Source: Myroides guanonis
GTDB lineage: Bacteria; Bacteroidota; Bacteroidia; Flavobacteriales; Flavobacteriaceae
Assembly (NCBI RefSeq): GCF_900114085.1
Contig: NZ_FORU01000002.1
Coordinates: 186,001-250,000 of the forward strand
DNA length: 64,000 nucleotides
Direction of reading: 5' to 3'
Both the position numbers and the translations under genes were made by a program. Below, in pieces: positions 28,740 to 41,435 of the stretch (positions are counted from its first letter, which is position 1; each line of letters opens with the position of its first letter). The notes below the pieces were generated by a model. It worked only from the letters and a program-made list of their open reading frames with translations. It was not told where the DNA came from and searched no databases.

Positions 28740-30608
28740 ATGAGTGATTTCTTACTTCAAGCATTTGTATTCTTATTCTCAGCAGTCATCTGTGTACCCA
28801 TTTCTAAGAAACTTGGAATGGGATCCGTATTAGGATATCTGTTGGCTGGAATTTTAATTGGCCCTTTCGTTCTAGGGTTTGTAGGAAAAGACGGAGCAGA
28901 CATTATGCATGCTACTGAATTTGGAGTCGTAATGATGCTTTTCCTAGTGGGATTAGAATTAGACCCCAGAGAGTTTTGGAAAATGAAAAGCCAGATAATT
29001 GGATTAGGAGGGTTACAAATCTTAGGTACAACCTTTATAACAACAATTGTTGCACTCTTTATTCTAGATTTAAGCTTTGCGACCTCGCTTACAATAGGTT
29101 TTATTGTAACGATGTCTTCAACAGCTATTATACTACAAACAATATCAGAAAGAGGGCTAACTAAAACAAGTGCAGGAAAATCAAGTTTTTCAGTTTTGCT
29201 ATTTCAAGATATAATGGTAATTCCAATTTTAGCTATTATACCATTATTAGCAGCTACTAATAAAATTGAGACAACAACAGGTCATCAAACGATACTTGAT
29301 GGATCTCCAGTTTTTACTAAGACATTAGTTATAATTGGTGCAATAGGACTCATATATTTCTGTGGAAACTTCATTGTTAACCCACTATTCAAGTCAATAG
29401 GAAGGTTGCAAGTAAGAGAGATTTTTACAGCTTCAGCGCTTATGCTTGTTATCGGAGTATCACTTTTAATGCAATTTGTAGGACTAAGCCCTGCACTAGG
29501 GGCATTTATAGGAGGTGTTGTATTGGCAAACAATCCTTTTAAACATCAATTAGAAAGTGATATTGAACCATTTAAAGCTCTCTTATTAGGTGTTTTTTTT
29601 GTAGCAGTTGGATCTACTATTAATTTTGGTATCATCATTGGTCAACCCCTTAAAATTGCAGGATTAGTATTCGGCTTTATGTTCATTAAAGCGTCTGTCT
29701 TATTCATAATTGGTAAATTAAAAAAGTTTAGTCGAGATCAAAACTTTCTTTTTGCAATATTACTTTCACAAATAGGGGAATTTGCATTCGTAATACTAGC
29801 ATTGAGTAAAAACATAAAGATAATCAATCAAGAATGGTACGACTTACTCTTAGCAACTACTGCCCTATCAATGGTAATTACACCTATTCTATTACTATTA
29901 AATGAAAAATGGATTTCTCCATACCTAGGACTAACCACCAATTCTATTCCCGATAAACCTTATGATGATTTATCTGATTCATCAATCACTGCAAGAAAGA
30001 AAATAATTATTGCAGGATTTGGTGACTTCGGAAACACTATTGGAAGACTTTTACAAGCTAATGGAGTACCAACATTAATTCTAGATAATGACCCCATTCG
30101 AGTAGAAAACCTCAGGAAACTGGGATTTAATGTCTATTATGGAGATGCCACACAAATAAACATACTAAAATCCGTCGATGCAGACGATGCAGATTATATT
30201 ATTGCGGCTATGGATCCTCCTGAACTAAACCAGCAATTGGTCGCAATCATGAGGAAGCACTTTCCTAAAACCGAAATTATTGTTAGAGCAAAAAACAGAC
30301 ACTACGCATACGAATACCTAAGAGATGGTTTGACTGAGGTGTATAGGGAAGCATTTTTTTCGGCAGTGTATGTCGGCGGTGTGATGTTAGAAAAAGTAGG
30401 CTTTACTCATGAAGAAGCTAGTGTACAAAGTGAATTATTTATAAAAAGTGATAGAGAGTCATTAAGAAAACTATCTCAACACACGCATAATTTAGAAGAC
30501 TATTTCAATCTATCACGAATGGAATTTCAAGAACAAAGTGAAATGTTAAAAAGAAATCTCAAAGAACGAAAGGAAAAGGACAAAAGCAATGATAAAGAAT
30601 CTTACTAA
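28740..30608 (+). CDS. Monovalent cation:proton antiporter, CPA2/KefC type, with RCK domain
   Basis: This 622-residue inner-membrane protein has about twelve hydrophobic segments in residues 1-385 (CPA2 exchanger fold, with GSVLGYLLAGILIGP at the start) and a cytoplasmic TrkA-N/RCK domain from about residue 415, where KIIIAGFGDFGNTIG is the nucleotide-binding loop. The tail (about 560-622) is charged. The usual role is potassium or sodium efflux against protons. It lacks the glutathione-regulated partner KefF in the neighbourhood. A strong terminator follows. Confidence 0.92.
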   Translation: MSDFLLQAFVFLFSAVICVPISKKLGMGSVLGYLLAGILIGPFVLGFVGKDGADIMHATEFGVVMMLFLVGLELDPREFWKMKSQIIGLGGLQILGTTFITTIVALFILDLSFATSLTIGFIVTMSSTAIILQTISERGLTKTSAGKSSFSVLLFQDIMVIPILAIIPLLAATNKIETTTGHQTILDGSPVFTKTLVIIGAIGLIYFCGNFIVNPLFKSIGRLQVREIFTASALMLVIGVSLLMQFVGLSPALGAFIGGVVLANNPFKHQLESDIEPFKALLLGVFFVAVGSTINFGIIIGQPLKIAGLVFGFMFIKASVLFIIGKLKKFSRDQNFLFAILLSQIGEFAFVILALSKNIKIINQEWYDLLLATTALSMVITPILLLLNEKWISPYLGLTTNSIPDKPYDDLSDSSITARKKIIIAGFGDFGNTIGRLLQANGVPTLILDNDPIRVENLRKLGFNVYYGDATQINILKSVDADDADYIIAAMDPPELNQQLVAIMRKHFPKTEIIVRAKNRHYAYEYLRDGLTEVYREAFFSAVYVGGVMLEKVGFTHEEASVQSELFIKSDRESLRKLSQHTHNLEDYFNLSRMEFQEQSEMLKRNLKERKEKDKSNDKESY

Positions 30609-30623
30609 TATATTTTTATAACT

Positions 30624-30662
30624 AAAAAAGGTCTGTAATAAAGTTAATTACAGACCTTTTTT
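30624..30662. terminator. Bidirectional terminator between the antiporter and beta-lactamase genes
   Basis: A 16-base-pair perfect stem (30624-30639 with 30647-30662, core AAGGTCTGTAAT) around a 7-base loop has A and T ends, so it serves both converging genes. Confidence 0.9.
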
Positions 30663-30689
30663 TATTTTCTAATCAAAACATTTAAGTTA

Positions 30690-31463
30690 TTACTTTCCAT
30701 GTTTAAACAATTCTATAGTATAATCAAGGAGTTCAGAAGTGCCTGGCGTCCCATGACCTGGAATAACTAAATTCACACTCGGAAACTCATGCTTAATTCT
30801 TTCTACAGTTTTAGACCATTCTACAACATTTGCATCCCCTAAATAACCTTTGTCAGCATTTAATTCTTTTATTAAACATCCACCAAAAAGAATATCCTCG
30901 CTTGGAAAGTAGCCTACAATATTATCCTCTGTATGTCCAGGACCAAAATATTTCGCCACTACAACCTTGTCACCAACATTTAAAGTCAGTGCATTATCAA
31001 AAGCATTGGTAGGGACAGAATAACCATGTTTTTTAGCCAATTCAATAGTTTTAGAATTAGCATACGAAGGAATATTATGATGCTTAAACGCGGAGAGCCC
31101 TCCTAAATTATCCTCATGAAAATGAGTAGTTATCACAGCTTTAACCGTACAGCCCAAAGTAAATCTAATCCAGCTAATTAATTCTTGAGAAGATTTATTA
31201 TCAGTAGTTGTATCAAAAATAACAACCTCATCGTTATTCTTTACAATCATTCCATTACATGGAACAAGACCAAAATCATTAGTTTTTAAAAAAGACGTAT
31301 GTAAGAAAGTGTTTTTCGATAATTCTGTAATTATTAAATCCTGAGATTTATAAACAACAATTGGAGTTACAATACTTGATCTCTGAGAATTACACCCTAC
31401 TAACAGTATGAAAAGCAACAACATTGAAATAGAGTGGAAGACATTTTTCATAGAATATTTCAT
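30690..31463 (-). CDS. Subclass B1 metallo-beta-lactamase, predicted lipoprotein
   Basis: This is a zinc hydrolase of beta-lactams, including by family expectation carbapenems. Numbering from the longest start, the zinc ligands are all present: H114, H116 and D118 in HFHEDNLGG, H177 in GPGHTEDN, C196 in GGCLIK and H237 in PGHGTPG. Lys199 corresponds to the conserved Lys224 of B1 enzymes, while the usual Asn233 position appears to be Tyr207. The N-terminus ends in the lipobox LVGC (Cys24), so it should be membrane-anchored. The start at 31451 (MKNVFHSIS) is equally possible and fits the promoter at 31482-31489 better. Myroides-type MUS/TUS enzymes are the nearest guess. Confidence 0.92.
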   Translation of the reverse strand: MKYSMKNVFHSISMLLLFILLVGCNSQRSSIVTPIVVYKSQDLIITELSKNTFLHTSFLKTNDFGLVPCNGMIVKNNDEVVIFDTTTDNKSSQELISWIRFTLGCTVKAVITTHFHEDNLGGLSAFKHHNIPSYANSKTIELAKKHGYSVPTNAFDNALTLNVGDKVVVAKYFGPGHTEDNIVGYFPSEDILFGGCLIKELNADKGYLGDANVVEWSKTVERIKHEFPSVNLVIPGHGTPGTSELLDYTIELFKHGK

Positions 31464-31481
31464 TTCGAATTATTTGTCTTC

Positions 31482-31511
31482 CAAATTTAGTACGCTTTAT
31501 TTGACAATCAA
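31482..31511 (-). promoter_or_regulatory. Metallo-beta-lactamase promoter
   Basis: The minus strand reads TTG (31509-31511), a 19-base spacer and TAAATTTG (31482-31489), matching both the -33 and -7 parts of the Bacteroidota promoter. The gene is therefore probably expressed constitutively. Confidence 0.65.
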
Positions 31512-31639
31512 AATATACCGAGCCTATAATTCTCTTAAAGTTCTAAAAGATTTGATAAATAATCATATTATAATCCCGCTTGAAGAATAAAATATCTTAA
31601 AAACTGAATTTTACACTATTTTAAATGTCTTTTTCATAA

Positions 31640-31683
31640 GATTAAGTTACATCTTTTTTGAGTAAAAAAGATGTAACTTAATC
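31640..31683. repeat. Perfect 20-bp inverted repeat
   Basis: GATTAAGTTACATCTTTTTT (31640-31659) is followed by GAGT and then its exact reverse complement (31664-31683). It resembles a bidirectional terminator, with T and A runs at the loop rather than after the stem, or the mark of a lost mobile element. It lies upstream of both the beta-lactamase gene and the amidohydrolase remnant. Confidence 0.7.
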
Positions 31684-31789
31684 CGAGAAATCTTATTAAG
31701 CGTAAAAGTATTCTCTCAAATATTTTATACTAGAATACTTTAAAATCCGTTATGGTTTGGTCTAGCATACTTCCATTAAGTATAAACAA

Positions 31790-32285
31790 ACTAAAAAGAA
31801 GATCTGACGATCTCAGCATCATGAAATCAAAAACTTAGGTGTAATTCCTTAAAGTTTTCCACTCATACATATTTATAGAGAGATTGGCATAACAAAAATG
31901 TTTTCGGTCCTGTCCCTACTGATTTTATAGGTCCCGCAAATTCAGTACTCAAAGCAGAAATACCATTTACTATTCATCACAATACTCCTTCTACCCCATC
32001 ATACCTAATGACTACTATATATGTAGCTGTAAACAGAAAAACAAAAATGGAAAGAATACTTGGTGAAGACGACAAACATCTCCACTTAAAGCTCTGAAAG
32101 CAATATCTGTCAAAGCCACATATCAATAACAAGAGGAGAAGATAAAAAGGTCTATAAAAGCCGGGAAATTTGCAGACTTAACTATCATCAATGAAAACCC
32201 GCTGAAAATAAATCCTAAAAAATTAAAAGATATTATAGTACTAGTGACAATAAAAGAAGTAAAAACAATTTTTCAACGAAATTAA
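31790..32285 (+). pseudogene. Decayed YtcJ-type amidohydrolase (C-terminal part)
   Basis: Pieces of an amidohydrolase can be read in shifting frames: RRSDDLSIMKS and LGVIP near 31800-31850, STHTYL-stop-RDWHNKN near 31859-31900, then VFGPVPTDFIGPANSVLKAE and FTIHHNTPSTP and VNRKTKMERILGEDD in one frame to about 32095, then ISPLKALKAISVKATYQ, and finally KAGKFADLTIINENPLKINP to the stop near 32284. These match, in order, the C-terminal third of YtcJ-like amidohydrolases. At least three frameshifts or stops break it and the N-terminal two thirds are missing. Confidence 0.8.
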
Positions 32286-32290
32286 AGTAA

Positions 32291-32944
32291 TCAAGATTTT
32301 ACATACAAATTACTTGCAATCTTCTTGGTAATAGTCAATTCCCTTTGGTCAATCTCCAATGTATATGATTGGTCAAAAGGTTCTATATTTAATATTTTTA
32401 TGTCACTACCTAAAGCAATCTTCTGCTTATCTAAATATTGAAGGAACTCACTTGAGGAATCTTTTACTCCTACACATACGCAAGCAGTACCAATTTCAAT
32501 TTCTGACAACAACTTTTTCTCTACTGATATTATCTCACCTTTTGAATTTGGAATTGGGTCACCGTGAGGATCTTCTGTAGGAAAACCTAGAAAAGCATCT
32601 AGCTTATTCACCAATTGCTCCGATTTAATATGCTCTAACTCTTCAGCTACTTCATGAACCTCGTCCCAATTAAAACCAAGCTTTTCAACTAAGAAAACCT
32701 CCCAAAGACGATGCTTTCTAACAATCATTTTGGCTGCCATCATACCTGAAGCTGTTAAACGAACACCTTGATATTTTTGATACTCTACTAAATCTTTATC
32801 ATCCAACTTTTTAATCATATCTGTCACCGAAGAGGCTTTAGTTTCAATACGTGAAGCAATTGCATTAGTACTAACCCCTTTCTTATTATTTAAGGAAAGA
32901 TGATATATAGTCTTGAGATAGTTTTCTTCTGAATAAGTAAGCAT
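32291..32944 (-). CDS. DtxR-family metal-dependent transcriptional regulator
   Basis: This 217-residue cytoplasmic repressor senses Mn or Fe. It has the N-terminal winged helix (MLTYSEENYLKTIYHLS, then SVTDMIKKLDDKDLVEY), a metal-binding and dimerisation domain with EVFLVEKLGFNWDEVHEVAEELEH split across about residues 85-110, and a C-terminal FeoA-like domain. I take the start at 32944 because homologues begin MLTYxEENYLK and a TAACTTTG promoter element lies at 32962-32969, inside the longer frame. It diverges from a TonB receptor across a palindromic operator, which it probably binds. Confidence 0.9.
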   Translation of the reverse strand: MLTYSEENYLKTIYHLSLNNKKGVSTNAIASRIETKASSVTDMIKKLDDKDLVEYQKYQGVRLTASGMMAAKMIVRKHRLWEVFLVEKLGFNWDEVHEVAEELEHIKSEQLVNKLDAFLGFPTEDPHGDPIPNSKGEIISVEKKLLSEIEIGTACVCVGVKDSSSEFLQYLDKQKIALGSDIKILNIEPFDQSYTLEIDQRELTITKKIASNLYVKS

Positions 32945-32961
32945 AAGCAAAATTTGAAATA

Positions 32962-32969
32962 CAAAGTTA
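32962..32969 (-). promoter_or_regulatory. DtxR-family gene promoter, -7 element
   Basis: The minus strand reads TAACTTTG (exact TAnnTTTG), 17 bases before the ATG at 32944. The palindromic operator begins 20 bases further upstream. Confidence 0.6.
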
Positions 32970-32988
32970 CACTCTTTTTTATTAACTA

Positions 32989-33041
32989 AATAATGTTTAG
33001 GTTTGCAATACATTTATATTTAGACAGGACTAAACATTATT
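32989..33041. promoter_or_regulatory. Palindromic operator and promoter between the DtxR-family and TonB receptor genes
   Basis: AATAATGTTTAG (32989-33000) and CTAAACATTATT (33030-33041) are perfect 12-base inverted repeats. Inside lies TTTAGACAGGACTAAA (33019-33034), itself a TTTAG/CTAAA palindrome. A TAGGTTTG promoter element for the receptor (32998-33005) overlaps the left arm, and the right arm ends 2 bases before the receptor ATG. Binding by the divergent regulator is inferred. Confidence 0.65.
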
Positions 33042-33043
33042 AC

Positions 33044-35320
33044 ATGAACAAACTAAACATTTATCTTATCCTATCTTACTGTCTATTTTTGTTTCCGTCT
33101 TTCGGAGTCGCACAACAAATAAAAGGCAATGTGTATTCGAACGAAAAACCTCTACCATTCGCATCTATATCAGTAGAGAAAACTAACATTGGAGTCCTAA
33201 CAGATGAAAATGGTTTTTATGAACTCTCTTTGAACACAGTCCAACCTGAAACCGATTCAATTATAATTAAAGTCGAATATGTAGGCTACAAAGCAAAATT
33301 CCATAAAATAATACTTACAGAAATCAATAGTTCAAACTTAAATTTTCAACTACAAGAAGACGACAACATGGATGAAATTGTAATTTCAACGAGTCTAAAA
33401 CCAATACTAAAATCTGACTCTGCTATACCTATAGAGATATACACACAAAAGTTTTTTCAAAAAAATCCATCTGCAAATCTATTCGAAGGTCTTCAACTAG
33501 TTAACGGTGTCCAACCTCAACTCAATTGTAATGTTTGCAATACCGGAGATATCCATATCAACGGAATGGAAGGCGCATATACAATGATACTCATTGACGG
33601 AATGCCTATTATATCATCTCTTGCCTCTGTCTATGGAATGAGTGGAATTCCTATGTCAATGATAGAACGAGTAGAAATTGTTAAAGGACCTGCCTCATCA
33701 TTGTATGGTACAGAAGCCATGGGAGGAATTATCAATATCATTACAAAAAAAACAGATACTTCTCCTATATTCAGTATGGACCTTTTTTCAACCTCTTGGC
33801 TAGAACACAATCTAGACCTTACAACCAAATTTAATGCTGGAGAAAAAACTCAAAGCCTTCTAGGTATTAACTACTTCAAGTTTGGAGAACGCTACGACAA
33901 AAACGAGGATGGCTTTACAGATGTTACACAACAAAACAGAATCTCTATTTTTAATAAATGGGACTTTGAAAGAAAACAAAACAGAATTGTAAATTTAGCA
34001 ATGCGTTATCTGTATGAAGATCGTTGGGGAGGACAAACAAATTGGGATAGAAAAGAACACCGAGGAAGTGATGAAATATATGCTGAAAGCATTTTTACTA
34101 ATAGAGTAGAAGTAATAGGTCAATATCAACTACCAATTTCTCAAAAGATAATGACCCAATTCTCGTATAATTGGCATAATCAAAACTCTTTCTATGGAAC
34201 TGAATCATACCAAGCTAATCAACAAGTTGTTTTTGGACAAGCTTATTGGGATTCTCAATATAAAAACCATAGTTTATTATTAGGAACTTCATTTAAATAC
34301 ACCTACTACGATGATGACACTCGAGGCACGGGGATATATGATGAAAATGGAATTGTCAAAAATAAACCAATGAAGAAACCCATAATAGGAATATTTATTC
34401 AAGACCAATGGGAAATACACAAAAATCACACAATATTACTAGGTTACCGATTAGATTATGACAAAACACATCAGTTCATACACTCACCTAGATTAGCATA
34501 TAAATATATGCCAAACCCTCAAAATACAGTCCGATTAAGTATGGGGACAGGTTTTCGAGTAGTTAATGTCTTTACAGAAGACCACAGAGCCTTAACCGGT
34601 GCGAGAGAAGTTATTATCAATTCAGATTTAAAACCCGAAGAATCTTACAATGCAAATCTAAATTATGTTTTTACTACCCCCTTCTCTTTCGGGATGCTTA
34701 ATTTTGACATAACCGGATTCTACACTTATTTTACTAATAAAATTGATGCTGATACAGATACTGACCAAACAAAAATAGTATACAATAACCTAGACGGTTA
34801 TGCAGTTTCTAAAGGTATATCTATAAATTTAGAAGCTAAATTTGACATCCCCTTACGCCTATTAATTGGAGGAAGCTACATGGACGTATATCGCCAAGAA
34901 GAAAATATCAGAAAAACCTTATATCATGCGCCAAAATGGTCAGGTACCTTCTTAGCTAGCTATCATTTTAAAAATGGATGGAATTCTGACTTTACAGTAG
35001 ATTGGAAAGGCCCAATGCGATTACCGAGAGTAGATAATGATTACAGAAATGAATACTCCCCAACAATATTCTTAGCAAACGTACAACTAACAAAGACCTT
35101 TGTCAATGGTATAGAAGTATATGGGGGGGTCAAAAATATTTTTAATATACTTCCAAAGTCAGATGCAATAGCACGTTGGTGGGATCCATTCGGAGAACCA
35201 GGAAACGGAATAACACCTCCAGAAGGTAGAACAGATGTAATTTTTGAACCCAATGACTACAGCTACACTCCAATGCAAGGTTCGCGAGTTTTTCTAGGAA
35301 TCCGCTATGCTTTAAGATAA
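33044..35320 (+). CDS. TonB-dependent receptor, probably for a metal complex
   Basis: This 758-residue outer-membrane receptor begins with a signal peptide (MNKLNIYLILSYCLFLFPS, cleavage near GVAQQ), then a carboxypeptidase-regulatory-like domain, a plug (ILIDGMPI, IERVEIVKGPASSLYG, GGIINIITKK) and a FepA/CirA-like barrel ending in LGIRYALR. The plug contains a Cys-x2-Cys pair in NCNVCNTGDIHING. The start at 33044 gives a proper signal peptide; the 17 codons upstream cover the promoter and operator. Divergence from a DtxR-family gene suggests import of iron, heme or manganese compounds; the ligand cannot be told. Confidence 0.9.
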   Translation: MNKLNIYLILSYCLFLFPSFGVAQQIKGNVYSNEKPLPFASISVEKTNIGVLTDENGFYELSLNTVQPETDSIIIKVEYVGYKAKFHKIILTEINSSNLNFQLQEDDNMDEIVISTSLKPILKSDSAIPIEIYTQKFFQKNPSANLFEGLQLVNGVQPQLNCNVCNTGDIHINGMEGAYTMILIDGMPIISSLASVYGMSGIPMSMIERVEIVKGPASSLYGTEAMGGIINIITKKTDTSPIFSMDLFSTSWLEHNLDLTTKFNAGEKTQSLLGINYFKFGERYDKNEDGFTDVTQQNRISIFNKWDFERKQNRIVNLAMRYLYEDRWGGQTNWDRKEHRGSDEIYAESIFTNRVEVIGQYQLPISQKIMTQFSYNWHNQNSFYGTESYQANQQVVFGQAYWDSQYKNHSLLLGTSFKYTYYDDDTRGTGIYDENGIVKNKPMKKPIIGIFIQDQWEIHKNHTILLGYRLDYDKTHQFIHSPRLAYKYMPNPQNTVRLSMGTGFRVVNVFTEDHRALTGAREVIINSDLKPEESYNANLNYVFTTPFSFGMLNFDITGFYTYFTNKIDADTDTDQTKIVYNNLDGYAVSKGISINLEAKFDIPLRLLIGGSYMDVYRQEENIRKTLYHAPKWSGTFLASYHFKNGWNSDFTVDWKGPMRLPRVDNDYRNEYSPTIFLANVQLTKTFVNGIEVYGGVKNIFNILPKSDAIARWWDPFGEPGNGITPPEGRTDVIFEPNDYSYTPMQGSRVFLGIRYALR

Positions 35321-35342
35321 TTATCTCCAATTCAATAAAAAC

Positions 35343-35383
35343 AAGAATGACCTACAGTGAACAAAAAACAATAGGTCATTCTT
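35343..35383. terminator. Bidirectional hairpin between TonB receptor and glutamate synthase-like gene
   Basis: AAGAATGACCTA (35343-35354) pairs perfectly with TAGGTCATTCTT (35372-35383) around a 17-base A-rich loop. Its place between converging genes fits a shared terminator. Confidence 0.7.
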
Positions 35384-35409
35384 TAAAAACTAAATAATTC
35401 TTAAACGTT

Positions 35410-37050
35410 TCAATTAGATAGAGGTTTTCTAGCCCAAGCTAAGTTATCCCAATCTAAATTGTCAAAATTAGGAGTGAAAGATTCTGCACTACTAATAGCC
35501 ATAATAGTCTCAAACTGTTTTGCATAGGGTTCCTGCAGAAGACTACCATTAGGAATATAAGGATAACTATCTAAATATGTTAGCACCTTGTCAGGAGAAA
35601 TACGTCTTTGAATGTATACTCGATGAATGTCACTTGGGTGCTTCAATCCAGCTGCGGCCAATAATTCAGAAGCACTTTTGACTGTTTCATTATGAAAATT
35701 AGCAACCCTCTTCTTTTTATCCTCTACCACAAGTCCACGAACTAATTTTGGGTTTTGGGTTGCCACACCAGTAGGGCAAGTGTTTTTATTACACTCTAAA
35801 GCCTGTATACAACCTATTGCAATCATCATACCTCTAGCACTGTTACACATATCTGCACCCAAAGCAAAGTTTTTAACTAAATCAAATCCGTTTGTAACTT
35901 TTCCAGAAGCGATGATTTTAATATGCCTTTTCAAATCAAAACCAGTCAAAGCATCATATACAAAAGCTAGAGCGTTTCGAAGTGGCATACCTACATGATT
36001 AGAGAATTCTAAAGGTGCCGCTCCCGTTCCACCTTCACCACCATCAACAGTGATAAAGTCAGGATATATTTTCGTCTGAACCATTGCTTTACAAATAGCA
36101 ACAAACTCACTTTTATGTCCAATACACAATTTAAACCCTATTGGTTTTCCATCAGAAAGCTCCCTTAATTTTTTAATAAAAGCAACAAACTCCAAAGGAG
36201 TAGTAAAAGCAGAATGATAAGATGGTGAATCTACATTCTTACCAACTTCTACTAACCGAATACGCGCTATCTCTTCCGAAACCTTAGACCCTGGGAGCAT
36301 ACCTCCGTGCCCAGGTTTGGCTCCTTGAGATAATTTTATTTCGATCATTTTCACGGTAGGCAATATTGCCTTCTCCCTAAAAGCATCTGGATTAAAAGTA
36401 CCATCTGGGTAACGACAACCAAAATATCCAGTTCCGATTTGCCATATTAAATCTCCACCTCTAAGATGATGATCGCTTATTGAACCTTCTCCAGTATTAT
36501 GAGCAAAATTACCTAACAAAGCTCCTTCGTTAAATGCCATAATTGCGTTTTTACTCAAAGAACCATAACTCATTGCAGAAATATTATATACACTTGCTGA
36601 ATAAGGCTGCTTACAATCAGGACCTCCAACCAAAACACGAGGATCTGTGTCAATAGTTTTCATTGAGAGCGCCTTAATACTGTGATTAAGCCATTCATAA
36701 TTATTCTCATACACGTCCAACTGCGTCCCAAACGGAACTGTATCCATCTGTCTCTTGGCCCTTTGATAGATCACATTCCTATGGATACGACTAAAAGGTT
36801 TTCCATCTGTATCACTCTCCACAAAATACTGATAGATCTTTGGTCTTAAATCCTCCATCACATAACGAAGTCTTCCCCAAATAGGGAAATTACGCCTAAT
36901 AGCTCTAGGAGATTGATACACATCAAAAACTCCCAGCCCCACTAGCGGCAATACTAGAAGTAAGGTCCAAAGTATAGGTGACCACCAAAAACTCAAGGCA
37001 ACAATAGCTAACACAACCAAAGAGGCAGTTGTAACAAAGTTTAATCTCAT
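35410..37050 (-). CDS. FMN-binding glutamate synthase-like protein, membrane-anchored
   Basis: This 546-residue protein is related to the FMN and iron-sulfur core of glutamate synthase (GltB central domain). Two hydrophobic segments occupy about residues 5-42. The catalytic part shows AMSYGSLSKNAIMA, KPGHGGMLPG, VDGGEGGTGAAP and a cysteine cluster CNSARGMMIAIGCIQ and CNKNTCPTGVATQ that would hold a 3Fe-4S cluster. It lacks the glutaminase domain, so it is not a full glutamate synthase; family members of this form have no well-established reaction. It stands alone. Confidence 0.88.
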   Translation of the reverse strand: MRLNFVTTASLVVLAIVALSFWWSPILWTLLLVLPLVGLGVFDVYQSPRAIRRNFPIWGRLRYVMEDLRPKIYQYFVESDTDGKPFSRIHRNVIYQRAKRQMDTVPFGTQLDVYENNYEWLNHSIKALSMKTIDTDPRVLVGGPDCKQPYSASVYNISAMSYGSLSKNAIMAFNEGALLGNFAHNTGEGSISDHHLRGGDLIWQIGTGYFGCRYPDGTFNPDAFREKAILPTVKMIEIKLSQGAKPGHGGMLPGSKVSEEIARIRLVEVGKNVDSPSYHSAFTTPLEFVAFIKKLRELSDGKPIGFKLCIGHKSEFVAICKAMVQTKIYPDFITVDGGEGGTGAAPLEFSNHVGMPLRNALAFVYDALTGFDLKRHIKIIASGKVTNGFDLVKNFALGADMCNSARGMMIAIGCIQALECNKNTCPTGVATQNPKLVRGLVVEDKKKRVANFHNETVKSASELLAAAGLKHPSDIHRVYIQRRISPDKVLTYLDSYPYIPNGSLLQEPYAKQFETIMAISSAESFTPNFDNLDWDNLAWARKPLSN

Positions 37051-37368
37051 AATTTCATTTTATTACAGGGTTGATAAAAGAATAAAATAGATACTTCCAA
37101 ATTCTTCTTTATTCTGTGTGTATTTAACGCATTGTTACGAAGTTATAAAAATTCACTGATTATCGTGTCTTTTTAACAATGCTAATTTACAGAGAATCTT
37201 AAACCTCAATATTTTCACTCAGTTTTCATTAATTATACTGTAAGTGAATAATCTGAAAGTATTTATAAAGTAAGATAATCGTTTTTCATAAAACACAGAA
37301 ATAATGCAGATTACACTTTATATTTTGGACTTAATCGTTATATTTGTTTCCAAACTAAAAACAACAAT
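37051..37368. other. Intergenic region between divergent genes
   Basis: I see no gene here. The only clear signal is the TATATTTG promoter element at 37339-37346 facing the plus-strand membrane protein gene. Confidence 0.5.
37339..37346 (+). promoter_or_regulatory. Small membrane protein promoter, -7 element
   Basis: TATATTTG matches TAnnTTTG exactly, 22 bases before the ATG at 37369. Confidence 0.6.
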
Positions 37369-37791
37369 ATGTATAACATTGTAAAACAGGCGCATTCAGG
37401 TATCGCCTACCTTGCTTTAATTTTGTTAGCAGTAGCAGCTATTAGTGCTATCATTGGACTTGTTTCAAAAAGGGAATTTAAAGAAAGTGACCGCAAACTA
37501 GCATTATTTGCTTTGATTTTCACTCACCTTCAATTACTAGGAGGAATTATTCTTTATTTCGTATCTCCAGTAGTACAAGGTTTTGGAGTAGCGATGAAAG
37601 ATAGTACACTGAGACTTTATGCACTAGAGCATCCTTTAATGAATATCATCGCAGTGATATTAATTACAATTGCATGGTCAAAACATAAAAAAGCAACAGA
37701 GAGTTCTAAAAAATTCAAATTGTTTGCTATCCTATACACCCTAGGTTTAGTCTTGATTTTATCGAGAATTCCTTGGAATGTATGGCCATAA
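37369..37791 (+). CDS. Small four-helix membrane protein (cytochrome b-like annotation in relatives)
   Basis: This 140-residue protein has four hydrophobic helices (about 12-32, 44-66, 85-102 and 113-132). Histidines occur at the helix ends or inside (IVKQAHSGIAY, IFTHLQLLGG, LEHPLMNI), which is why similar flavobacterial proteins are sometimes called cytochrome b, but heme binding is not shown by the sequence. No partner gene is adjacent: a terminator follows and rlpA-type genes come next. Confidence 0.7.
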   Translation: MYNIVKQAHSGIAYLALILLAVAAISAIIGLVSKREFKESDRKLALFALIFTHLQLLGGIILYFVSPVVQGFGVAMKDSTLRLYALEHPLMNIIAVILITIAWSKHKKATESSKKFKLFAILYTLGLVLILSRIPWNVWP

Positions 37792-37800
37792 TAATATACA

Positions 37801-37834
37801 AAAGAGAGTCTAGTTTTTAGACTCTCTTTTTTTT
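37801..37834 (+). terminator. Terminator after the small membrane protein gene
   Basis: A 12-base-pair perfect stem AAAGAGAGTCTA (37801-37812) / TAGACTCTCTTT (37818-37829) is followed by more T. Confidence 0.9.
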
Positions 37835-37875
37835 GGCACTTATTTTGTAGAAAGTAAGTAATTAAAAATAAATCA

Positions 37876-38394
37876 ATGAAAGAATATACAGCACTAATTT
37901 GGATACTGAGTTTCTTGTTATTTTCGAGTTTCACTACCGATAAACAATGGAGAAAATCGGACACTACACCCACTATTGCAATAGATACTTTGGGACTTGT
38001 TACAGTAGGGAATAAACAATTTGATTCAAACAATACTATAGAAGATTCAATACAAGCTGTAGAAGAAATCAACGAAGAATTAGAATTGATTGCACCAGAA
38101 ACAAAAGCCTCTTACTATCATGACAAGTTTATAGGCAAGAAAACCGCTAGTGGATTAGTATTTGATAACAAAGCATATACCGCAGCTCATAAGACTCTAC
38201 CATTCGGAACAAAAGTAAAAGTAACTAATTTAAAAAACCTTAAATCAGTCATACTAACGATTACCGACCGGGGTCCATATACTAAAGGTAGAGAAATAGA
38301 TATTACCAAAAAAGCCTTTATGGAATTAGCAGAAAACAGAGGTCACGGTACACTTAATGTAAAAGTAGAACGCATTACTAATGAAGATAGTTAA
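37876..38394 (+). CDS. RlpA-family septal lytic transglycosylase-like protein, first copy
   Basis: This 172-residue exported protein has an N-terminal hydrophobic signal (about residues 5-20) and a double-psi beta-barrel RlpA domain from about residue 75. Visible family motifs are ASYYHDKFIGKKTASG, AAHKTLPFGTKVKVTN and ITDRGPY, with the histidine and aspartate expected at the active site of RlpA glycosidases. It has no SPOR domain. A second RlpA-type gene follows with a 14-base overlap. Confidence 0.88.
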   Translation: MKEYTALIWILSFLLFSSFTTDKQWRKSDTTPTIAIDTLGLVTVGNKQFDSNNTIEDSIQAVEEINEELELIAPETKASYYHDKFIGKKTASGLVFDNKAYTAAHKTLPFGTKVKVTNLKNLKSVILTITDRGPYTKGREIDITKKAFMELAENRGHGTLNVKVERITNEDS

Positions 38395-38794
38395 GTCACT
38401 TTCCCACAAAACTTTCATATTTATCCTGCCTCTAGTAGCAGCTTTCTGCATAATAACATCTTGCTCAAGCTCCAAACAGCATATATCAAATTCCAAAATT
38501 TACGAAAAGAAAGCCGTTGCAGTATATTATCACGATAAATACAATGGAAAACCGACCGCTTCTGGCGAATTATTCTCAAATAATAAATACACAGCAGCAC
38601 ACAAGACACTTCCTTTTGGCACAAAACTACGTGTAACCAATCTTGTAAATCAAAAATCTACAGAAGTCAAGGTAAATGATCGAGGACCATTTACCAAAGG
38701 GAGAGACATCGACCTAAGCAAAAAGGCTTTTATGGAGATAACAGACAGTAAAAGTAAGGGGGCTCTAGATGTAAAAATAGAAATCATCAAATAA
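38381..38794 (+). CDS. RlpA-family lipoprotein, second copy
   Basis: This 137-residue protein has a signal ending in a lipobox (about residues 25-29, IITSC) and an RlpA domain with YYHDKYNGKPTASG, AAHKTLPFGTKLRVTN and VNDRGPFTKGRDIDLSK. It is clearly similar along its whole domain to the preceding gene, so the pair arose by tandem duplication. It overlaps the upstream frame by 14 bases, suggesting coupled translation. One copy is predicted to be lipid-anchored and the other secreted or membrane-tethered. Confidence 0.88.
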   Translation: MKIVKSLSHKTFIFILPLVAAFCIITSCSSSKQHISNSKIYEKKAVAVYYHDKYNGKPTASGELFSNNKYTAAHKTLPFGTKLRVTNLVNQKSTEVKVNDRGPFTKGRDIDLSKKAFMEITDSKSKGALDVKIEIIK

Positions 38795-38796
38795 GA

Positions 38797-39264
38797 CTAC
38801 CAATTTTTAAACGGCTTTTTAGCTATAAACGAATTGTAATAGCGGTTGTCACCCGTTACCTCCTCACCTAGCCAAATTGGTTTTTCAAAAACCTCATCCT
38901 CGGCACTCAATTCAATTTCAGCGATTAGCAAGCCCTCATTAGCCCCGTGAAATACATCTATTTCAAAACAATGCTTTCCATGTGGAATAAGATAGCGAGT
39001 CTTGTCAATAATGTAATCTTCGCATATACTTAAAAGCTTCAAAGCTTCTTCAAAAGGTATCTCTTTTTCCCATTCCATTCTCGAAGTACCTGATTCATTG
39101 CTCTTTCCTTTAACAGTAATGTACCCTTTATCATCTTTCGTTCGAATACGAACCGTTCGTTCTGCAACTGAACTAAGATACCCTTGTTTTATAAGGTATT
39201 GATTGGTAGCCAGTTTAGTAATGTTGGTATTGTCAATCAGAAACTTTCTTTCGATTTCAATCAT
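38797..39264 (-). CDS. CYTH domain protein
   Basis: This 155-residue cytoplasmic protein starts MIEIERKFLI, the ExExK signature of the CYTH superfamily, and has the alternating charged strands of the triphosphate tunnel (VRIRTKDDKGYITVKG, MEWEKEIP). Bacterial members include inorganic triphosphatases and thiamine triphosphatase; the substrate here is unknown. It is a single gene converging on the RlpA pair with 2 bases between stops. Confidence 0.9.
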   Translation of the reverse strand: MIEIERKFLIDNTNITKLATNQYLIKQGYLSSVAERTVRIRTKDDKGYITVKGKSNESGTSRMEWEKEIPFEEALKLLSICEDYIIDKTRYLIPHGKHCFEIDVFHGANEGLLIAEIELSAEDEVFEKPIWLGEEVTGDNRYYNSFIAKKPFKNW

Positions 39265-39346
39265 AGATTTTAAAATAATAGTGTAATTTTAATCCAAAAT
39301 AAGCAAATTAATACGAACTATTAAGAGTTTATCAATACTATTTCGG

Positions 39347-41428
39347 ATGAGATTAAGACAAAAGCAACAACCTATAGTAACAGTAGAGGAACTTTTTAGA
39401 AAATATATAATAAATGGCGAAGTTTATGCACAAGATGAGTTACTCTTTTTAATAGACCTCGTTCAAATTTTTAGACCAAAGAAAGTTAAAAATATAAAAC
39501 GGATATCTATTGAGGAATTGCTAACCTACTTAACTCAAAATCCTTCAGATTCATTAGCGTTTACAAAGTATTTAAAATCATTACTAGTAAACCGAAAGTT
39601 TAGCAGAATGATTTCGGATGCAGGTATTCTACAAGATTCTGATTTTATATATGAGATTAAAAAAAGACTCTCTGCAAAAATACTACCTTTTCAACCAGAT
39701 AAAGACACCTTTGAATATATCCTAAATCAAGTGTTTTATAAACATACTGATTCAGAATGGATTAATAAAATTCCAGAGGGACAGCTATTAAGTCTATTTG
39801 ATATATTACAATTCAACGATATTTTTAGCTCCACTAAGGACGAATCAATACTTGCTGAGCTAATGGCTTCTATGGGACTTATTACGCAACGTATGAGCGG
39901 TAGAGCTATGGAAAGTTATTTAATACGAATGGTACCTGAATACTCTCACTTCGAAAGTCCCTTTTTAGCATTTGAAAATGAGTTCCTTCTGATAGAACAC
40001 AACCTCAGACAAGGAAATATGCATTACATAACTCCTGAAGATTTAAACTACAAACAACTACTAATACTCCATAAACAATGCATCGACTTTGTAAATCAAG
40101 CTTTCAAAAATAGTTCCAAATATGGAATATCTTTAAAAGTTAATCAAAGTTTACTCCGCATTAGACAACAGCTACAACGAGTTAGGATTCTTTTATCATT
40201 ATTGGTCGTTTCCAATGAGCTTGACAAAAAGAAAAATTCAATCTATTTAGTATTGAAGCTAATAGAATATAATTGCTATAAAAATAATGTCACAAAATTA
40301 ATTGGAGAAAGCACCCAATTGATATCTTATGAAATTACACAGCATACTGCTAAAACTGGAGAACATTACATAACCAATACTGCTAAAGAATATTGGGATA
40401 TGTTTAAAACAGCAATGGGTGCCGGAGTAGTAGTAGGATTTCTTTGTGTTTTCAAAGTTCTACTATCAAAAGCTGACACAAGTGCTTTAGGATTTGCTTT
40501 CTTATACAGTTTAAACTACGCATTTGGATTCGTCTTAATATACCTATTAGGATTCACACTTGCAACCAAACAACCTGCAATGACTGCAGCTGCTTTAATA
40601 AAAGCAATTGAAGATGGAATGAAACAACATTTAAAAGTAAACGACGGGGACAAACACATTGCCTTTGCTAAATTGTTTGCTCGTTTATTTCGCTCACAGT
40701 TCATTGCGTTTATTGGTAACGTTATCCTAGCATTTCCTATTGCGTTATTAGTTGTATGGCTAATCGATATGGCTACCGGAATTAATATCGTCGATACGAA
40801 GTGGCATACATTATTAGAAGACTCAAGTCCAATACACTCACCTGGTTTATTACATGCCGCTATAGCTGGTGTATTTCTATTCCTTTCTGGATTAATTTCA
40901 GGTAGCGTAGCAAATAAACAAAAACACAACCGGGTTTACTATAGAATCCAAGAACATCCTTGGCTTAAACGTAACTTAGGAATTCGAAAAACAAAAAATA
41001 TAGCTAATTGGGTCGAAAATAAATGGCCAGGACTTATGTCGAATATATGGTTTGGTATATTTATGGGTAGTGCTAGCTCAATTGGTATATTTATAGGCTT
41101 AAATATAGATGTTCGTCACATTACTTTTGTAAGCGGAAATATTGCTCTAGGACTATATGGTGCCGATTTTGCAGTTAACAACTCTATGTTGATTTGGGCT
41201 TTTATTGGACTTTGGTCTTTTGGATTTGTTAACTTCATTGTAAGTTTCAGTCTTTCTTTAGGACTAGCGTTTAGATCTCGCAATATACCATGGACTGAAG
41301 TTTTTCCATTGATCCGTTCTATATGGATACATTTTAAAAACTTTCCTGCAGAGTTTTTCTTCCCTGTAAAAGGCTCCATGATTACAACGGAAAAAAAAGA
41401 AGAAGAAAAAGTAAAATCTGAAAATTAG
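39347..41428 (+). CDS. Gcr-type membrane protein (annotated site-specific recombinase family)
   Basis: This 693-residue protein belongs to the SpecificRecomb/Gcr family first named in Neisseria. The N-terminal half (to about 340) is soluble and helical; the rest has about seven membrane helices between residues 355 and 660. I see no integrase tyrosine-arginine set or serine recombinase motif, so a DNA recombinase role is doubtful and a membrane function is more likely. It is followed 8 bases later by a LytS-type kinase gene, with which it may be cotranscribed. Confidence 0.8.
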   Translation: MRLRQKQQPIVTVEELFRKYIINGEVYAQDELLFLIDLVQIFRPKKVKNIKRISIEELLTYLTQNPSDSLAFTKYLKSLLVNRKFSRMISDAGILQDSDFIYEIKKRLSAKILPFQPDKDTFEYILNQVFYKHTDSEWINKIPEGQLLSLFDILQFNDIFSSTKDESILAELMASMGLITQRMSGRAMESYLIRMVPEYSHFESPFLAFENEFLLIEHNLRQGNMHYITPEDLNYKQLLILHKQCIDFVNQAFKNSSKYGISLKVNQSLLRIRQQLQRVRILLSLLVVSNELDKKKNSIYLVLKLIEYNCYKNNVTKLIGESTQLISYEITQHTAKTGEHYITNTAKEYWDMFKTAMGAGVVVGFLCVFKVLLSKADTSALGFAFLYSLNYAFGFVLIYLLGFTLATKQPAMTAAALIKAIEDGMKQHLKVNDGDKHIAFAKLFARLFRSQFIAFIGNVILAFPIALLVVWLIDMATGINIVDTKWHTLLEDSSPIHSPGLLHAAIAGVFLFLSGLISGSVANKQKHNRVYYRIQEHPWLKRNLGIRKTKNIANWVENKWPGLMSNIWFGIFMGSASSIGIFIGLNIDVRHITFVSGNIALGLYGADFAVNNSMLIWAFIGLWSFGFVNFIVSFSLSLGLAFRSRNIPWTEVFPLIRSIWIHFKNFPAEFFFPVKGSMITTEKKEEEKVKSEN

Positions 41429-41435
41429 CAACACC

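Follow-up and report, generated by a model that had tools for sequence, protein, structure and literature searches.

A predicted membrane-anchored B1 metallo-beta-lactamase of Myroides guanonis in the Bacteroidota CHM/CIM/CJO/MYO group

Introduction

CJO-1 from Chryseobacterium joostei and CIM-2 from Chryseobacterium indologenes were shown in a 2025 study to be membrane-anchored beta-lactamases, both of which raise the MICs of most beta-lactams tried. In the same study, 71 Chryseobacterium B1 enzymes were found to carry a lipobox, Tyr was observed at position 233 of CJO-1 and the poor cefepime activity of CJO-1 was attributed to Lys59. CIM-1 was described in 2024, and lipoprotein homologues were noted, among them two Flavobacterium jejuense proteins whose lipoboxes are canonical (PMC10920655). 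Tyr233 was also reported in MYO-1 and SHD-1 (PMC7443720). CJO-1, CIM-2, ECV-1 and MYO-1 have been measured as active, the last in PMC7443720. In SPM-1, zinc binding and substrate profile are both modulated by the residue at position 121, where changes alter activity and zinc affinity (PMC3879351).

Here, we analyzed a B1 metallo-beta-lactamase gene in a 64,000-nucleotide stretch of Myroides guanonis DNA (the window). We assign a probability of roughly 0.93 to its product being a functional chromosomal B1 metallo-beta-lactamase of the Bacteroidota CHM/CIM/CJO/MYO group.

Results

The gene is an intact and complete open reading frame on the minus strand. Because the Met5 column is nearly invariant in family alignments, translation may start at this residue (31451), which would leave a signal of 19 residues ahead of the lipobox Cys. 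The composition of the gene (GC 32.7%, GC3 23%) matches that of its neighbors and of the genome.

30690..31463, minus: B1 metallo-beta-lactamase coding sequence, 257 aa (253 aa from the alternative start at 31451)
31482..31512, minus: Bacteroidota-type promoter TTTG-N19-TAAATTTG, ending 18 nt ahead of the ATG, from pattern counts
30624..30662, strand not assigned: terminator-like hairpin separating the beta-lactamase gene from the Na+/H+ antiporter gene that converges on it
31392..31403, minus: lipobox LVGC, with residue 24 (20 from Met5) as the Cys predicted to be lipidated, from the sequence and the relatives

The promoter had been described as a consensus match, and this description held. 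TTTG-N19-TAAATTTG fits the Bacteroidota consensus, the exact pattern occurs four times in the window versus 0.7 expected, and the looser TTTG-N17-21 form has a chance of ~0.5% per 100-nt upstream stretch. Overlapping this promoter is a 12/12 match to sigma-70 TTGACA/TATAAT with an 18-nt spacer (31501-31530, plus strand). It was rejected as the promoter of the gene as it points away from it, and it is probably a chance match, given that the phylum uses a different consensus.

Two further elements lie upstream. An inverted repeat with perfectly matched 20-bp arms and a 4-nt loop (31640-31683) is located ~180 nt ahead of the start codon of the beta-lactamase gene. It was examined as a sign of a mobile-element origin; no further copy was found elsewhere in the genome, and on the basis of this single occurrence it was rejected as the signature of a repeat family. 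The remnant of a decayed amidohydrolase gene (31750-32290, clearest at 32133-32285 on the plus strand) sits between the beta-lactamase promoter region and a DtxR-type regulator, and its C-terminal piece matches Amidohydro_3 with an E value of 4e-6, just below the cut-off.

The B1 identity of the protein, as well as the presence of six zinc ligands and the substrate-binding lysine, had been proposed in the first-pass annotation, and all were confirmed. With the NCBIfam B1 equivalog model NF033088 the score was 270 bits, above the cut-off of 200. By alignment, the ligands H116, H118, D120, H196, C221 and H263 correspond to local residues 114, 116, 118, 177, 196 and 237, while Lys224 and Tyr233 are local residues 199 and 207.

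31110..31124, minus: HFHED, containing zinc ligands His116-x-His118-x-Asp120 followed by Asn121, from alignment
30933..30935, minus: zinc ligand His196, from alignment
30876..30878, minus: zinc ligand Cys221, from alignment
30867..30869, minus: Lys224, contact to the substrate carboxylate, from alignment
30843..30845, minus: Tyr at BBL position 233 in loop L10, from alignment; also Tyr in CJO-1, CIM-2 and MYO-1
30753..30755, minus: zinc ligand His263, from alignment

Among the NCBIfam subfamily models, the best score was obtained with CHM (NF041758), at 364 bits under a cut-off of 475 bits; the protein is therefore not a CHM allele. It shares a lipobox with CHM-1. The scores for the CIM family (NF041441, 322 bits) and the BMHC family (NF045721, 337 bits) also fell below the respective cut-offs of 490 and 550 bits. 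A search of the genome for another B1 enzyme found none. One scan of a contig collection for named relatives returned only a distant 25% match. Assignment as an anti-phage defense protein was rejected in the absence of a PADLOC match.

The structure was modeled with AlphaFold2 from a 29-sequence alignment, from which two rows from plasmid records were left out, with a mean pLDDT of 94. The best PDB match was CJO-1 (9GX9), with a TM score of 0.97 by target, an rmsd of 0.7 A and 64% identity, followed in order by CIM-2 (9GX8, 59%), a Dyadobacter enzyme (9C3D), ECV-1 and MYO-1. Apart from the last two, the sequence search returned the same order. CJO-1 shares with the window protein the B1 ligands, lipobox, Tyr233 and fold at ~64% identity over the mature domain, and CIM-2 shares membrane anchoring, as predicted here, and Tyr233 at 59-60% identity. 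Both differ from it in having Lys59-Gln60 and Ser121 instead of Leu59-Lys60 and Asn121, and their lipoboxes read LLNC and ILSC, respectively, rather than LVGC. MYO-1 (Myroides odoratimimus, PDB 6T5L; 52-54% identity) likewise has Tyr233, a shortened loop L10 and a lipobox-like FISC, but is plasmid-borne and contains Cys121. NDM-1 is also a lipoprotein B1 enzyme, but it is only 29% identical, contains Asn233 and Lys121 and is far off in the tree; an NDM-like origin was rejected. No characterized enzyme was found close enough for the window protein to share its name.

The lipobox L21-V-G-C24 is canonical, fitting [LVI][ASTVI][GAS]C, and the protein is predicted to be lipidated. Under a simple rule, lipobox-like Cys residues were found in 48 of 54 collected relatives, eight of them canonical. 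They occur in most of the CHM/CIM/CJO/MYO group and in few enzymes outside it, NDM being the clear outsider. JOHN-like enzymes (a label used here after JOHN-1 of Flavobacterium johnsoniae, not the outcome of a test) are common in the same genus; they mostly lack a lipobox but often have Tyr233. The six relatives in which the lipobox is weak or absent would allow a secreted, soluble enzyme that is processed by signal peptidase I and leaves Cys24 unlipidated. We consider this highly improbable, as LVGC is fully canonical, follows a hydrophobic stretch and is nearer to consensus than the lipoboxes of two enzymes known to be membrane-bound, CJO-1 and CIM-2.

Anchoring and the replacement of Asn233 by Tyr had both been regarded as unusual. 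The lipobox and Tyr233 are present as described, but neither is unusual, as the closest homologues are named enzymes with the same signal and the same residue. Of the 58 relatives, 32 have Tyr at position 233, 19 have Asn, five have Phe and one has His; Tyr was also found in GIM-1 by alignment and structure comparison.

Rarer residues were found elsewhere. The protein departs from residues at least 85% conserved in the group at three positions, Thr86, Asn121 and Pro175. Residue 86 is Pro in 55 of 58 relatives. Second-sphere position 121 is Cys in 53 and Ser in four, CJO-1 and CIM-2 included, and Asn in one other row of the 58, a truncated match. Leu59, part of the Leu59-Lys60 pair in loop L3, is the majority state among relatives. 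In a relative from the same genus (L014), Asn121 occurs together with an in-frame stop; that gene is apparently decaying, and its genome also has the distant B1 type.

The rare Asn121 and Thr86, along with an end branch of 0.55 that is the longest in the subclade, could indicate that the enzyme, in an environmental host that seldom selects for it, has kept an intact B1 fold while its activity became weak or narrow or shifted to a different lactam or an ester. This is very unlikely, since the reading frame is intact, the zinc ligands, Lys224 and all columns invariant across the group are kept, and three departures are an ordinary number for the group. A functional beta-lactamase is the reading we retain. 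Because position 121 modulates SPM-1, a modest kinetic difference arising from Asn121 is possible. We propose only tentatively that the protein merits a B1 family name of its own inside the anchored Bacteroidota group, and that Asn121 and Leu59-Lys60 together with Tyr233 would alter zinc affinity or substrate profile relative to CJO-1 and CIM-2.

In the tree, the window protein falls with the CHM/CIM/CJO/MYO enzymes in a 58-row group (SH-aLRT 96) apart from the JOHN-type, CfiA, IMP, VIM and NDM enzymes. Its inner position is weakly supported (82). Its neighbors are CJO-1, CIM-2 and proteins of other families and classes, joined by weak inner branches, and host families are mixed. Relatives with at least 47% identity were detected in nine other genomes among 150 of the genus; the B1 enzyme of most remaining carriers is of the distant type. 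At E <= 1e-45, relatives were found in 66 of 397 genomes in a family search and in 25 of 395 in a phylum search.

The closest genome found by comparing neighboring genes (G019; antiporter 73%, DtxR 75%) is collinear with the window over the UPF0102-S66 peptidase-DinB-antiporter block, after which the genes are reversed in order and orientation. Accordingly, a ~10.8-kb block of the window (~30.6-41.4 kb, about 30600-41430) is inverted relative to G019 (L098). The beta-lactamase gene is absent from G019 at this site, an inversion junction. In the window, the gene and the amidohydrolase remnant lie together at one junction of the inverted block. Apart from the beta-lactamase itself, four other carriers in the genus have no gene of this neighborhood in common with the window, nor any with one another.

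No transposon or integron genes were detected among the scanned neighbors, in agreement with the earlier description of a chromosomal gene lacking such signs. The further suggestion that the gene is intrinsic is consistent with this setting, but is made doubtful by the patchy distribution, the unshared location and a tree in which host families are mixed. Vertical inheritance fits less well than old horizontal moves or frequent loss; any direction of movement is inferred.

Discussion

The residues present suggest a mechanism and mode of anchoring already described for the group. Two zinc ions, held by H116/H118/H196 and D120/C221/H263, would activate a hydroxide to open the beta-lactam ring, while Lys224 would bind the substrate carboxylate and Tyr233 would stand for the usual Asn in loop L10. 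Most likely anchored in the membrane, the enzyme is predicted to hydrolyze beta-lactams and would make its host less susceptible, probably to a moderate degree, to penicillins, cephalosporins and carbapenems.

No current view is changed by this enzyme. It extends the known environmental reservoir of anchored Bacteroidota B1 enzymes by a further natural sequence, from outside the genera in which such enzymes were characterized. The relatives surveyed here suggest that neither anchoring nor Tyr233 is out of the ordinary in the CHM/CIM/CJO/MYO group and that the gene has often been moved or lost.
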